A stretch of DNA of 64,000 nt from Methanolobus zinderi. GTDB taxonomy: Archaea > Halobacteriota > Methanosarcinia > Methanosarcinales > Methanosarcinaceae. This document shows, one piece after another, positions 4,338-50,927 of the stretch. The position numbers and the translations under genes are program-made. The notes below the pieces were generated by a model. It ran no database searches, was not told where the DNA came from, and saw only the letters and a program-made list of their open reading frames with translations. The stretch spans positions 1,922,001 through 1,986,000 of the forward strand of contig NZ_CP058215.1 of the NCBI RefSeq assembly GCF_013388255.1. The letters are read 5' to 3'. Every line of letters starts with the position of its first letter. Position 1 is the first letter of the stretch.

Positions 4338-4802
4338 CTACAGACGAACACCAGTCTTTTTAAACTCCCGTTCACTGAACAGCAATCTGTAGTCCTTGAT
4401 CCCGGTCACCTGCGAGATCCTGTCTGCAACTATTTCACAGTCCGCCCTTGTATAGGAATGGACCATGGTGAAAAGATTATAATCCCATCCGGGACGTCGG
4501 GGCCTTTCGTAGCAATGAGTGACCTCTGCAAAGGATGCCATGATATTGCCAATCTCCTCCACATGTTCATCGGGGACATTCCAGATACACATGGCGTTTG
4601 CGACGATACCGATATCCCTGTGACCGATGGAAGCACCGAAGCGGCGGATTATTCCTTTCTCCTGCATCCCTTTTATCCTTTCAACGATCTCTTCCTCGCT
4701 CAGACCCAGGCTTTCGGCCAGGTCCTTGAATGGAGAAGTAGTAAGTGGAATACCATTCTGAGTAAATCTGATTATAGCTTCTTCGATCTCATCCACTTTC
4801 AT
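4338..4802 (-). CDS. ahbB: siroheme decarboxylase subunit B (Lrp/AsnC fold)
   Basis: With AhbA, decarboxylates siroheme to 12,18-didecarboxysiroheme in the archaeal heme route. An N-terminal winged helix (KDLAESLGLSEEEIVERIKGM) is followed by a RAM-like ferredoxin fold containing VTHCYERP and WDYNLFTMVHS, the substrate-site blocks shared by the AhbA/B family. The ATG at 4802 overlaps the AhbA stop (ATGA), indicating translational coupling and a stoichiometric complex. The HTH could suggest a transcription factor, but the paired arrangement next to ahbD favours the enzyme. Confidence 0.92.
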   Translation of the reverse strand: MKVDEIEEAIIRFTQNGIPLTTSPFKDLAESLGLSEEEIVERIKGMQEKGIIRRFGASIGHRDIGIVANAMCIWNVPDEHVEEIGNIMASFAEVTHCYERPRRPGWDYNLFTMVHSYTRADCEIVADRISQVTGIKDYRLLFSEREFKKTGVRL

Positions 4803-5257
4803 CACCTGATATCGAACTTAACACCTATTTTAAACAGCCTTTTTGTAGGCAGGTTGATAAATTCCAGACCTGTCTTCTCTTTGAGCTCTGAAAGGATCTC
4901 ATCAACTCTCTCCTTATCAGAAGCTGAAAGGGTGAACCAGACATTATACTTATCCGGACGAAGGTAGTTATGCGAAACCTCAGTATATTCATTTATGTAA
5001 GCTGCAACTTCATCTATCCTTTCATCTGGCACATCTACGGCAACAAGTGTGCTTGTGCCCCCGATACGTTTACGGTTTATCACCGGGCCGATCTTCCTGA
5101 CGGCTCCTTCATCATGCAGCCTTTCAAGACGCCTGATCACTTCGCCTTCACTTATACCCAGTTTTTCTCCCAGCTTTTTAAAAGGACGGACATCAAGTGG
5201 AAAATCAAACTGTATAGTATTAAGTATTGTTTTATCCGTATCATCAAGATATATCAT
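4802..5257 (-). CDS. ahbA: siroheme decarboxylase subunit A (Lrp/AsnC fold)
   Basis: Partner of AhbB. Same layout: a winged helix ([22 protein letters not shown]), then a ferredoxin-like domain with [18 protein letters not shown], the cognate of the HCYERP block in AhbB. The ATG at 5257 (151 residues) lies five bases after the stop of ahbD, preceded by GTGATC. A longer frame extending upstream would run into ahbD and adds residues unlike the family, so I trimmed it. Operon order is ahbD-ahbA-ahbB. Confidence 0.92.
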
Positions 5258-5261
5258 AAGA

Positions 5262-6314
5262 TCACTGTTTTTCAGGTACGTATATACAGTAGGGTTCCTC
5301 TTCGAGATAATCCCCGGTGGCAGCGTATGCACGTGCACGACAGCCTCCACATACTTTATTGTATTCACAGTCACCACACTTGCCTTTCAGTTTTGAGACA
5401 TCCCTAAGGTCATTAAAGACCTTTGAGTTCTCCCAGACATCCTTAAAAGACTGCTCTTTAATGCTTCCTGCAAGTGCGGGCAGATATCCGCAGGGATAGA
5501 CTTCCCCTATACTGGATACGAAACAGAAGCCGGTGCCACCCAGACAGCCTTTTGTCATGGCCTCATAGCCATGGGTCTTGACGCTGACCTCGATACCTTC
5601 TTTCTTTGCCTTCTGGCGCATGATCCTGAAGTAGTGGGGTGCGCATGTGGCCTTGAGCTGGATCTTTGCAGTCTTCTGCTTATCATAGAACCAGTTAAGG
5701 ACCCTCTCATATTCCACCGCCGGGATCTCCTCATTCTCAAGTTCCTTACCCCTGCCGGTTGGCACAAGCAGGAATATATGCAGGGCCTCTGCCCCGATTT
5801 CTGTTGCCATCTCAAGTATGGCAGGGATCTCCTTAAGATTGCGTTTTGTAATGGTGGTGTTTATCTGGAATCCTATTCCTGCCTTTTTGATATTATCGAT
5901 ACCTTTCATGGCACCTTCAAAGGCACCGGGCATGCATCTGAAATCATCGTGGGTCTGCGGGCTGGAGCCATCCAGGCTTATGCTGATCCTCTTAATCCCG
6001 ACGTCCCTGAGCCTTTCAGCAACTTCCGGGGTCACAAGTGTCCCGTTGGTTGCAAGGGCAACACGCAGGCCTTTTTCGGTGGCATACTCAGCAAGCCCGT
6101 AGATATCATCCCTTACAAGTGGTTCACCGCCACTGAGAATGAGTATGGGGTTTCCCATCTGCGCAATCTCGTCGATAAAGCGCGTTGCCTCCTCGGTTGT
6201 GAGTTCACCTTCCGGTTTTTCAAAAGTCGATGCCCCACGGCAGTGCCTGCAGGAGAGATTACAGCCTGCAGTCGTTTCCCATGCTATCAGTCTTGGAGCT
6301 TTTACCATATTCAT
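5262..6314 (-). CDS. ahbD: AhbD-type heme synthase, radical SAM/SPASM
   Basis: Catalyses oxidative decarboxylation of Fe-coproporphyrin III propionates to vinyls, the last step of the siroheme-dependent heme route. The radical SAM cluster is CNLSCRHC (C18, C22, C25), followed by LSGGEPL. The C-terminal SPASM region has many cysteines (YPCGY, then [13 protein letters not shown]) for auxiliary clusters. It leads the operon immediately before ahbA-ahbB, the arrangement I recall for the heme synthase of Methanosarcina barkeri. AhbC (Fe-coproporphyrin synthase) is the alternative assignment. The ATG at 6314 has no ribosome site and a close TATA box, so the transcript is probably almost leaderless. 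Confidence 0.85.
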
Positions 6315-6348
6315 CAATTATAATTTTTGAAGTTCTGAGCTTCATTTA

Positions 6349-6640: not shown

Positions 6641-7021
6641 ATGGACAGGAAACAGAAAACTGTTCTTGCAATATTTTTTATTATCTTTGTCGGGGCCATC
6701 GGACTCTGGAATGTGGATCTTTCACAGGGATATCCCATGATATCCGAGTTAAAGGAAAAGCCGGACAAATATGTGGGGGAGAACGTCAACACCATGGGTA
6801 CTATTAAGAATGGTACACTGGATGTATCCACCGAAGGAATATCCTTCACTCTTATGGATGTGGAAGATGAGAATTTTGAAATCGGCGTCGAGTACACCGG
6901 AGCGCTTCCCGCAGACCTTGATGAGGGAAAGGGTATTAGCATCAGTGGCTTGATGGTCTCGCCGAACATGATAGAAGCTAATAAGATCGTGATGGGGTGC
7001 CCTTCTAAATATAAGGAATGA
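6641..7021 (+). CDS. ccmE: cytochrome c maturation heme chaperone CcmE, archaeal CxxxY type
   Basis: Membrane-anchored OB-fold protein that carries heme outside the membrane for attachment to apocytochrome c. One N-terminal anchor helix (residues 8-23, VLAIFFIIFVGAIGLW) precedes a beta-barrel domain with KYVGENVNTMGTI and ISGLMVSPNMIEANKI. The heme-attachment motif is C120-P-S-K-Y124, the CxxxY form, where most bacteria have HxxxY. Its length of 126 residues is normal. It is cotranscribed with the ccmD-like gene before it and the prenyl synthase 16 bases after it. ccmA, B, C and F are not in the window. Confidence 0.88.
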   Translation: MDRKQKTVLAIFFIIFVGAIGLWNVDLSQGYPMISELKEKPDKYVGENVNTMGTIKNGTLDVSTEGISFTLMDVEDENFEIGVEYTGALPADLDEGKGISISGLMVSPNMIEANKIVMGCPSKYKE

Positions 7022-7037: not shown

Positions 7038-7928
7038 ATGACCGAAATAGAGAATCTTGAGGAATATCAGCTAATCAAGGCTTCAATGGACGAACTGGTC
7101 GCTTCGATGAACGACAGTTCCAATATGAAAAAAATGATGCTGCACATCTGCAGTTCGGGCGGCAAGAGCATCAGGCCCATAATACTGATGCTGTGCACCG
7201 AGCTATGTGGCGGAGATTCCAGGAAAAGTATCAATGCAGCCCTTGCTATCGAGCTTATACATTCCGCATCCCTGATACACGATGATGTACTGGATGACGG
7301 AGTCATACGCAGGGGAGTCGAGTCGGCCCACAAGAAATACGGAGTTCCGGCAGCCATACTCTGCGGCGATTTTTTGATATCAAAGGCCATATCCCTGATC
7401 TCATCATACGGAACCGATTCCGTACTTGAGTTCGGAAGGGCGGGGATGTACATGGCTGAAGGAGAAACAATTGACATCTCAAGTGCTGATGGTGAGTTCA
7501 GGAAGCAGAACTATTACGATTGTATCTCCAAGAAGACCGCATCCCTGTTTGCTGCAAGCGCAGCCATAGGAGCATATGTTGCAGGTGCTGACAGGGAACT
7601 TGCCCTCAAGTTAAGGGATTTCGGAGAATGTGTGGGTAATGCATACCAGATAGTCGATGACCTGCTTGAATACCTTAACAGGCTGGAAGACAAACAGTCA
7701 ACATACGAATCAGTTACCTTACCGCTTATATTGCGCCGAAACATGGATCATGATGAGACCATAGATGCGACCGTTAACGAGGTCAATTCCCACGTGAACA
7801 GGGCAAAGAGCATTCTTGATGAGTTCAGCCCTTCGGTTGCAAAGGATAAGCTGCTGATGGTGACAGACCTGATCACCCTTGATATGCTGCCATCAAATAT
7901 CCTAGCCAGAAATCAATCTAATTCTTAA
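7038..7928 (+). CDS. long-chain prenyl diphosphate synthase, probable geranylfarnesyl type
   Basis: Head-to-tail condensation of isopentenyl diphosphate with allylic diphosphates. The first aspartate-rich motif is D82-D-V-L-D86 in LIHDDVLDD. The second is D207-D-L-L-E211, with Glu replacing the usual last Asp. The residues four and five positions before the first motif are Ser and Ala (HSASLIHDD). Small residues there leave the product pocket open, so a chain longer than C15 is expected. Methanosarcina makes a C25 chain for methanophenazine with a dedicated synthase, and the location between ccmE and the heme and ATP synthase genes fits that role (inference). C20 synthase for membrane lipids is the alternative. 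Confidence 0.85.
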   Translation: MTEIENLEEYQLIKASMDELVASMNDSSNMKKMMLHICSSGGKSIRPIILMLCTELCGGDSRKSINAALAIELIHSASLIHDDVLDDGVIRRGVESAHKKYGVPAAILCGDFLISKAISLISSYGTDSVLEFGRAGMYMAEGETIDISSADGEFRKQNYYDCISKKTASLFAASAAIGAYVAGADRELALKLRDFGECVGNAYQIVDDLLEYLNRLEDKQSTYESVTLPLILRRNMDHDETIDATVNEVNSHVNRAKSILDEFSPSVAKDKLLMVTDLITLDMLPSNILARNQSNS

Positions 7929-7948: not shown

Positions 7949-9142
7949 ATGAAAGTTTACGATCGATCAGTATTAAAAGTAAATGCAGATACAGTGGATG
8001 GCAAAGTGGTACTCGATACCGAAGGACCGCTGTCCCCTGTCGCAAAGCCCATTATAAAGCGCATAAACAAGATATTCCAGGAAGAAAAACCAATCTCTTC
8101 CGACGAGGAAAACATCATATTCTCAACATGGGTACCTCCCATGCCAAGCGAGGCATTCAACCGCATGATCAGTGCACAGGTTGCATCCATACTCAAAAGA
8201 AGGATACCTGACCAGTTCTCCATTGGTATCACCGGAAAATGTCCTTATGATTGCATTCATTGCGGAGCAGCAGGTATCGTTTCAGACCCCGAACTGAGCT
8301 TTGATGAGATAAATCTTACAATAGAGCAGGCCCTGGATCTTGGCAGTTACTATATCTCATTTGACGGCGGAGAGACGATGCTGCGTAAGGACCTTCCCGA
8401 GATGGTTGCCAGGGTAGATAAAAGCAGGGCCATTGCTACCTGTTTTACATCCGGTTTTGCTCTGGACGAGGATCGTGCCAGGAAACTCAAAGAAGCAGGA
8501 CTTTTTGCATTGCACATGAGTCTTGACAGTCCTGATGAAAAGGAACATGACAGAGTAAGGGGCCGTGAAGGAGCCTTCAAAAACGCCATTGAAGGAGCCA
8601 GGAATGCAATCGGTGCAGGCATACTCGCAGATCTCTTCGTAGTAATGTCACCTTATAATATAGATGACCTTGAAGAATTCTACCAGTTCGCATGGGACAT
8701 GGGTATGCAGGAAATGTCCATATATGAGATCGTTGCCGTGGGTCGCTGGATGGAACATGAAGACGAAGTGATCACTGACAAAGATGTCAGGCGCCTTGCA
8801 GATTTCCAGAAAAGGATCAATAAAAAACCTGATGGACCAAGGGTTACAGCCCTGCCTTACTTCATGGGTCCCGAGCAGTTCGGATGCTTTGCAGGTAAAC
8901 GCTGGATGCACGCAACTGCAGGGGGAGACGTGCTCCCATGTGCATACACACCACTTTCCTTTGGAAACATCCGTGAAGAAAAGCTTTCAACAATATGGGA
9001 GCGTATGGGCAGACATGCAGCCTACAGTTGCTCTTCGGATTATTGTCTGATGCGCAACCCGGAATTCAGGAAAAAATACATCCATACTATCCCGGAAGAA
9101 GCACGACTTCCTGTCAGAATTGAAGACCTTATTACAAAATGA
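7949..9142 (+). CDS. radical SAM/SPASM protein of unknown function
   Basis: A 397-residue protein. About 90 N-terminal residues with no recognisable domain precede a radical SAM core with CPYDCIHC (C98, C102, C105), FDGGETMLR and SLDSPDEKEHDRVRG. A SPASM-like tail has GGDVLPCAY, FGNIREEKLSTIW and CSSDYC for extra iron-sulfur clusters. It starts 20 bases after the prenyl synthase and is surely in its operon. It is not AhbC: the cluster motif and N-terminus differ. Function is unknown to me. Context suggests a step in methanophenazine, heme or cytochrome assembly. Confidence 0.9.
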   Translation: MKVYDRSVLKVNADTVDGKVVLDTEGPLSPVAKPIIKRINKIFQEEKPISSDEENIIFSTWVPPMPSEAFNRMISAQVASILKRRIPDQFSIGITGKCPYDCIHCGAAGIVSDPELSFDEINLTIEQALDLGSYYISFDGGETMLRKDLPEMVARVDKSRAIATCFTSGFALDEDRARKLKEAGLFALHMSLDSPDEKEHDRVRGREGAFKNAIEGARNAIGAGILADLFVVMSPYNIDDLEEFYQFAWDMGMQEMSIYEIVAVGRWMEHEDEVITDKDVRRLADFQKRINKKPDGPRVTALPYFMGPEQFGCFAGKRWMHATAGGDVLPCAYTPLSFGNIREEKLSTIWERMGRHAAYSCSSDYCLMRNPEFRKKYIHTIPEEARLPVRIEDLITK

Positions 9143-49712: not shown

Positions 49713-50927
49713 TCAGCGCTCAAAGTCAAGCCCGTATTTGGCAACGTTCTTGAACAATACTCTCAGATCCCACAGGAGCTTCCTGTTGGCTTTGAAAAGG
49801 GCATAAAGAAGATCCAGCAGGCTCATTGTTGAAAAATTGACATTTTTTAGTGAATGAGCCAGGTCGTTGAGTTCCTTATCGGTGAATTTGATGAACACGT
49901 TTTTGACAATGAGGCTGTTATCGATCTCCAGACCGACTGTAGAACGCCATTTTTTCTCATACTCCCCGAGCTTTGTCTCGGAAAGATCACCTGAGGAAAT
50001 TGCTTCATAGGCAACCTCACCGGCAATCTCACCAGCCTCCATGGCATTGACAATTCCTCCGCCTGTGATCGGATCGGACTGCCTTGCAGCATCCCCCACA
50101 AGCATCAGACCGTTTGCAATTGTCTTATCTATACTGCCACTTACAGGAACACCTCCGACGTCCACTTCAAGGACACGGGCATCAGGGAATTTCTCCGCCA
50201 CAAAGTCTTCCAGATATTCAATTGCAGTCTTTTGTCCGGATTTACTTCCCAGGATACCTATTCCCACGTTTGCAAGATCATTCCCTTTGGGGAAGATCCA
50301 GATATATCCTGCAGGTGCCATCTCATTGCCGAGATAGAAATAGCAATATTCCTGATCTATACCCGTATTACTCATCAGGAACTGTGCACAAGTCTCAATG
50401 TCCACCGGTTTGAGGGATGTATCAATGCCTGCCCATCTGCCTACCTTTGATTCAACACCATCAGCACCAATGACTATCTTACAGCGGACTTCACGCTCCT
50501 CGCCCCGGTGCATTATCCTGACACCCCTGACAAAACCGTCTTCGATGATGAGTCCGGTGGCTCTTGTCTTTACAAATACCTCGGCACCAGCTTTAGCACT
50601 TTCATATGCAAGGGCCCTGTCAAACAGTTTACGTTCAAGGACATAGCCGACCTCGGCACCTGCAACCTCTTCTGCCATTTCTATCATTGTACCGTCGGGG
50701 GAAAATATGCGTGAGCCCTTGACATCGGCACATATCCACCGGTCGTCCAGATCGATATGTTTCTTAAGACAGATCTTGCTTACACCTTCCGCACACCTTA
50801 CGGGATCTCCTATTTCCTGTCTCTTCTCGATCAAAAGGACACTCAGACCCTTTTCTGCTGCGGTTTTAGCTGTGATCGAACCTGCAGGACCCGCTCCTAT
50901 CACCACCACATCATAATATTCTTTCAC
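49713..50927 (-). CDS. digeranylgeranylglycerophospholipid (geranylgeranyl) reductase
   Basis: Flavoenzyme that saturates the isoprenoid chains of archaeal membrane lipids, 404 residues. The FAD dinucleotide motif [28 protein letters not shown] is followed by the family block [35 protein letters not shown] is the second FAD site. The start is GTG at 50927 with GAGGTGAGCAG upstream, sharing four bases with the ferredoxin stop. In Methanosarcina acetivorans the same pair, reductase plus ferredoxin, was reported to be needed for full lipid saturation. Confidence 0.93.

Follow-up and report, generated by a model that had tools for sequence, protein, structure and literature searches.

Energy conservation in Methanosarcina, Methanothrix and ANME-2 centres on methanophenazine, which to our knowledge is the only phenazine that serves as a membrane electron carrier. 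Passages in papers of 2021 and 2024 describe its biosynthesis, the prenyl-diphosphate synthase aside, as undeciphered or as awaiting discovery (PMC8546582, PMC11477647). PhzF, an enzyme of the bacterial phenazine pathway, is reported in only some methanophenazine producers (review, PMC5244752). The related prenyl synthases MM_0789 and MA0606 have been named and associated with methanophenazine (Ogawa 2010, cited in PMC3017947 and PMC8546582). A C25 synthase has also been reported for Ca. Methylarchaeales of Thermoproteota (PMC9478090). The relevant passages of PMC3017947 already report heme genes and an ATP synthase operon near the C25 synthase; the radical SAM gene by the synthase goes unmentioned in them.

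We suggest that this radical SAM gene, here called rSAM1, encodes an enzyme for one step of methanophenazine biosynthesis, most likely a step on the phenazine head group, and we put the probability of this reading at roughly 80%. The gene is a strong candidate because it lies beside the synthase of the C25 tail and, together with five further genes, is inherited almost exclusively by archaea without menaquinone. The window, that is, the whole stretch of 64,000 nucleotides of Methanolobus zinderi DNA that was analysed, contains the following features at this locus.

4338-4805, minus strand: ahbB, siroheme decarboxylase, above cut-off
4802-5377, minus strand: ahbA, siroheme decarboxylase, above cut-off
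5262-6317, minus strand: AhbD heme b synthase, 606.8 bits (cut-off 500), itself a radical SAM protein
6641-7021, plus strand: ccmE, first gene of an apparent ccmE-GFPPS-rSAM1 operon in Methanolobus-type genomes
7038-7928, plus strand: geranylfarnesyl (C25) diphosphate synthase, relative of MM_0789/MA0606, matched by NF040627
7949-9142, plus strand: rSAM1, unnamed radical SAM subfamily, 397 amino acids, CPYDCIHC; the subject of this analysis
7949-8221, plus strand: family-specific N-terminal domain of rSAM1, residues 1-91, motif STWxPPxPSxxFxR
8240-8263, plus strand: CX3CX2C motif (C98/C102/C105) for the SAM-binding [4Fe-4S] cluster, read from the sequence and invariant in 50 homologs
8885-9046, plus strand: reduced SPASM region with C313 (8885-8887), C331 (8939-8941) and C366 (9044-9046)

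The original prediction placed 16 bases between ccmE and the prenyl synthase and 20 bases between the synthase and rSAM1, and both distances are exact. For the synthase, whose pocket it took to allow a long chain, the best NCBIfam match is the geranylfarnesyl model GFPS_Meth (NF040627; E 3e-102). The score of 342 bits is below the 600-bit cut-off of that model, a cut-off reached only by 14 of the 393 genomes in our sample (all of one genus) and by M. acetivorans. The synthase has HSASLIHDDVLDD at its first Asp motif.

The product of rSAM1 belongs to the radical SAM superfamily (PF04055, 87.8 bits against a curated cut-off of 29.5) and to the SPASM-domain proteins (PF13186, 32.5 bits against 21.5). 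The radical SAM core proposed for CPYDCIHC is thereby confirmed, with C98, C102 and C105 as its cysteines. The SPASM-like cysteine tail proposed along with it is right as to the domain and wrong if taken as the seven-cysteine motif that holds two auxiliary clusters: apart from the three core cysteines, only C313, C331 and C366 are invariant across 50 homologs. Because only these three are invariant in the SPASM region, we predict one auxiliary cluster, bound by three residues of the protein, instead of the full two-cluster arrangement. None of the NCBIfam models reaches its equivalog cut-off with rSAM1; the scores are 121 bits for NirJ2 (cut-off 500), 115.5 for AhbD (500) and 86.5 for AhbC (650). 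The MqnE model TIGR03700 is absent among the 25 families listed for the protein, so rSAM1 does not class as MqnE.

The AlphaFold2 model of rSAM1 is confident (pLDDT 93.7). Its best Foldseek matches are SkfB (E 1.9e-15), PqqE, CteB and SuiB; BlsE and MoaA (E 8e-12) are also found. One could take these matches to mean that rSAM1 is a peptide (RiPP) maturase like its closest solved relatives SkfB, PqqE and SuiB, and the predicted N-terminal part, three strands followed by helices, is indeed loosely RRE-like. However, what the matches have in common with rSAM1, at 15-18% identity, is the generic rSAM/SPASM fold, and the first ~90 residues match neither PqqD/RRE nor any other known family in Pfam, NCBIfam or PDB sequences. 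Moreover, no ORF next to the gene looks like a precursor, and only three auxiliary cysteines are left. We therefore reject a maturase of the PqqE or SkfB type, which we consider extremely unlikely.

In Methanosarcinaceae-type (f1) and Methanothrix-type (f5) genomes, each of the 32 loci examined has rSAM1 next after the C25 synthase on the same strand, an adjacency that exceeds chance. In ANME-2-like genomes (f2), by contrast, rSAM1 follows ccmE without the synthase in two of three loci. Four f2 genomes (G384, G192, G364 and G242) possess the six-gene module described below and have no GFPPS match at E<=1e-45, so in these genomes the chain may come from a different prenyl synthase.

Could the neighbours point to heme instead? 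In every one of the 29 Methanosarcinaceae loci among the 32, the gene just before the synthase is ccmE, which in two ANME-2-like loci stands directly upstream of rSAM1. Heme genes lie within 6 kb of rSAM1, and its best NCBIfam relatives, far below cut-off, are the heme enzymes NirJ2 and AhbD. An enzyme that modifies heme or assists in the assembly of c-type cytochromes, the second option of the original prediction, would fit such surroundings. On the other hand, four Ahb proteins score above their cut-offs: AhbA, AhbB and AhbD, encoded in the window, and AhbC, encoded at another place in the genome (L011). Heme synthesis is therefore complete, and no known heme step is left for rSAM1. In addition, ccmE is not seen upstream of the synthase in the Methanosarcina locus L102 or in the Methanothrix-type loci, and all of these keep the link between synthase and rSAM1. 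The distribution of the gene bears on the same question.

With a homolog threshold of E<=1e-50, members of the rSAM1 family were found in 95 of 393 genomes sampled across the phylum: in all 62 of f1, all 4 of f2 and all 14 of f5, and in members of f10, f14, f16 and f20 (the names attached to f1, f2 and f5 are inferred from kinship and named relatives). The family is also present in Methanonatronarchaeia. Nearly all carrier genomes have three copies. Families f19 and f29 have one copy in one genome each: in f19 a rSAM2-like gene on a 12-kb contig of the menaquinone-type MAG G082, with none in its sister G025, and in f29 a lone distant homolog (G150). Homologs common in methanogens without cytochromes were looked for in these 393 genomes and did not occur. 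Among 84,980 named genomes that were scanned, relatives of rSAM3, a paralogue, turned up in Methanosarcinaceae, ANME-2, Methanothrix, Ca. Methanohalarchaeum (Methanonatronarchaeia) and MAGs such as Yes46, UBA148 and Met33H, which are labelled Methanocellales or Methanosarcinales. The lineages of these MAGs look related to Ca. Serpentinarchaeum, a non-methanogen (PMC11176372).

Two records from such searches deserve mention on their own. A MAG titled Methanoperedenaceae UBA10536 has a rSAM3 (L202:896-1966) nearest to that of Methanosarcinaceae (69%), an apparent exception to the menaquinone rule set out next. In a MAG titled Candidatus Bathyarchaeota (L133), two rSAM1-like genes adjoin a rSAM3 whose identity to the Yes46-type lineage is 71%; this is either a mislabelled bin or a transfer.

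HdrE, the methanophenazine-oxidising cytochrome b, was sought with a protein query, since Pfam PF02665 proved too insensitive. It is found in f1 (62/62), f2 (4/4), f5 (14/14), f3 (3/3) and Methanohalarchaeum (G020), with one stray match in f15. The query finds none in f10, f16 and f20, although the module is present there, and none in G010, a Methanonatronarchaeia single-cell genome that is 93% complete. For menaquinone synthesis we took TIGR03700 scores of about 370 bits or more as the MqnE range, the CofH-like background being at about 340-360. Scores in the MqnE range occur in f3, f4, f8, f9, f19 and f33 and in none of f1, f2, f5, f10, f14, f16 and f20; in the window's genome the model matches a single locus (E 2e-96), whose score is at the CofH-like level.

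The rSAM trio is carried by the main families that have HdrE but lack MqnE, whereas f3, which belongs to the same order and is the only family with both, has none of rSAM1-3. Kinship and gene content of f3 fit Methanoperedenaceae, a member of which gave menaquinone-type spectra and no methanophenazine by HPLC-UV (PMC4683180). Thus the gene is present in methanophenazine-type families and absent from menaquinone users with the same cytochrome, and indeed from nearly all menaquinone makers sampled; G082 and, apparently, L202 are the exceptions. This distribution excludes a menaquinone-type enzyme as the identity of rSAM1. The f3 contrast also separates a role in methanophenazine synthesis from a general role with cytochromes. 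Together with the completeness of AhbABCD, and with the fact that the co-inherited UbiA and prenyl reductase are not cytochrome genes, it leads us to reject the heme or cytochrome explanation as very unlikely.

The genome of the window has two more full-length copies, rSAM2 (42% identical to rSAM1) and rSAM3 (36%), the latter 82-86% identical in named Methanolobus genomes. In a tree of 55 sequences, rSAM1, rSAM2 and rSAM3 each form a well-supported group within Methanosarcinia; deep-branching lineages contain a direct counterpart of rSAM3, and two further deep clades lie outside rSAM1 plus rSAM2. In the window's genome rSAM2 directly follows genes for a UbiA prenyltransferase and a geranylgeranyl-reductase-like flavoprotein (L009). 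This order is kept in every Methanosarcinaceae rSAM2 locus examined (L103-L107), so that the three genes make an apparent operon in the window's genome and in other Methanosarcinaceae. Separately, the window's genome has a KaiC/RadA-like ATPase gene whose end overlaps rSAM3 (L010:9806-11789); 17 ORFs among the retrieved loci are KaiC-like.

The three paralogues, the UbiA prenyltransferase, the flavoprotein reductase and a fourth radical SAM protein, rSAM4, constitute a six-gene set. In the window's genome the last of these lies at:

G000:C1:2687876-2688808: rSAM4, counted among the 26 of 26 carriers

Partners were counted in 47 representative genomes, 26 of them carriers and 21 not. The set marks all 26 carriers and is complete in 0 of the 21 others, two of which, G082 and G150, have a lone gene of the rSAM1/2 type. 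Orthologues of the reductase score at least 196 bits in 26/26 carriers (background at most 136), those of rSAM4 at least 294 bits (26/26; background at most 154), and UbiA, reductase and rSAM4 at such scores are found in 0/21 non-carriers. The UbiA1 orthologue is present in all 19 representatives of f1, f2 and f5 and in none of the other 28; the seven deep-lineage carriers all have a second type, UbiA2, and an NMT1-like protein (7/7 for both). Fisher tests give 8e-14 for genomes (26/0 vs 0/21) and 6e-6 for families (7/0 vs 0/15), values that only describe the fit because related genomes are not independent. The co-occurrence counts likewise include related, phylogenetically non-independent genomes. 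Co-inheritance, adjacency and protein families mark the six-gene set as a candidate methanophenazine module. The proposal that rSAM1 takes part in a methanophenazine step has gained support from its distribution, its place beside the synthase, its UbiA, reductase and radical SAM partners, and its near-exclusion from menaquinone makers; the cytochrome option offered beside it is disfavoured, given f3 without the gene, complete heme synthesis and the loss of the ccmE link.

A few further observations concern these partners. A paralogue of the geranylgeranyl-reductase family, 29% identical to the module reductase, lies in the window at 49848-50912 (minus strand) and is perhaps a membrane-lipid reductase. 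The rSAM4 ORF at L215:9293-10330 (G000:C1, ~2687793-2688830) is TIGR03961-like at 138 bits, below cut-off. In several Methanosarcinaceae rSAM4 adjoins a SAM hydrolase (PF01887) gene and thiC, a link not seen in f2 and f5. A ThiC-type benzimidazole feeding the phenazine ring was considered and dropped, because this ThiC passes the cut-offs for true ThiC (577 and 553 bits), the BzaB model does not reach its own, and loci of f2 and f5 lack the rSAM4-thiC link.

In Met33H, Yes46-type genomes and Methanohalarchaeum the module genes lie in one or two compact clusters. The deep-lineage cluster runs, in order, rSAM3, a rSAM(1/2-like) gene, rSAM4, the reductase, another rSAM(1/2-like) gene, UbiA2 and the NMT1-like protein (L071, L077, L078, L079); in Methanohalarchaeum it is split in two (L075, L076). 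The NMT1/THI5-like gene, of binding-protein fold, adjoins UbiA2 (L077:8119-9000 and homologs), and its product has no obvious signal peptide. By analogy with MqnA/MqnD and THI5, this protein is possibly an enzyme. It has no orthologue in Methanosarcinaceae, where the best matches are at 22-24% identity, and its model from six close sequences has a pLDDT of 56, too low for a fold search.

These lineages raise the question of whether the module makes some other prenylated redox compound or a C25 membrane lipid, its match with methanophenazine being a by-product of shared ancestry. Families f10, f16 and f20 have the module without HdrE, with a different UbiA and with the NMT1/THI5-like protein, and for these reasons the product could be another one at least there. 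Also counting against the methanophenazine reading are the exceptions G082, L202 and G150, the f2 genomes without a GFPPS match and G010 without an HdrE match. Against a different product stand the adjacent C25 synthase, of a kind linked with methanophenazine (PMC3017947 and PMC8546582, citing Ogawa 2010), the finding that the module and menaquinone synthesis nearly exclude each other across the sampled genomes, as a membrane electron carrier predicts, and Methanohalarchaeum, which has both HdrDE and the module. On balance we consider another product unlikely.

If the module does make methanophenazine, the division of labour might be as follows. The C25 synthase would make the C25 donor. UbiA would attach the chain to a hydroxylated aromatic, in the manner of archaeal UbiA enzymes that form lipid ethers, and this enzyme is a more likely agent of the coupling step than rSAM1. 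The reductase would saturate one double bond of the chain. In the original description, methanophenazine is said to have a mass of 538, that is, C25H43-O-phenazine with one double bond fewer than geranylfarnesyl. By mass arithmetic 2-hydroxyphenazine plus C25H43 comes to 538.8 and plus C25H41 to 536.8; since the described mass of 538 is closer to the former, removal of one double bond by the reductase fits.

The four radical SAM enzymes would assemble or trim the phenazine ring without oxygen. In rSAM1 itself the predicted auxiliary cluster, held by just three cysteines, by analogy with MoaA suggests an open iron site that might hold a small polar substrate. Its reaction could then be an oxidation, a decarboxylation or the formation of a bond, driven by SAM and acting on an aromatic precursor with an amino or carboxy group, and oxidation or decarboxylation of such a precursor is a tentative guess on our part. 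A wider suggestion, for which we see even odds, is that methanophenazine arises by an oxygen-independent route unrelated to Phz, in which the four co-inherited radical SAM enzymes build the ring. This route would be ancient and clustered in Methanonatronarchaeia and in lineages resembling Ca. Serpentinarchaeum, a non-methanogen; such lineages, lacking HdrDE, would rely on a carrier similar to methanophenazine.

Whatever the exact step, an orphan gene has become part of a defined six-gene set beside a known C25 synthase, each gene with coordinates and open to knockout in a tractable methanogen. The module may serve to tell users of methanophenazine from those of menaquinone by their genomes, which is useful for uncultured methanotrophs, and it predicts a methanophenazine-type carrier in the cultured Methanonatronarchaeum. 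We found no description in the open-access literature that assigns the six-gene set; preprints and most subscription papers lay outside this search, and a recent assignment is possible.

How does rSAM1 compare with systems already described? It has a radical SAM core and a SPASM-type C-terminal region in common with AhbD, NirJ2 and AhbC (TIGR04545, TIGR04055, TIGR04546), but scores at most 121 bits against cut-offs of 500-650 and has an N-terminal domain of its own; moreover, its genome encodes AhbC and AhbD in separate genes. The SPASM maturases of redox cofactors or peptides, PqqE, SkfB and SuiB, resemble it in overall predicted fold, yet they have seven auxiliary cysteines against three in rSAM1, which has no RRE match and no visible precursor peptide. 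The auxiliary cluster of MoaA (GTP 3',8-cyclase) is held by three cysteines and is the parallel we propose, while identity is only 18% and the auxiliary motif and genomic context are different. If our hypothesis holds, the bacterial Phz pathway (PhzBDEFG) yields the same class of product as the rSAM module; we know of no radical SAM enzyme in it. The futalosine pathway to menaquinone (MqnA, MqnC, MqnD, MqnE and the UbiA-type MqnP) is alike in outline, with head-group synthesis by radical SAM enzymes followed by UbiA prenylation, and the deep-lineage module clusters also hold a gene of binding-protein fold. It employs another radical SAM subfamily, however, and the genomes that encode MqnE almost exclude the rSAM module.
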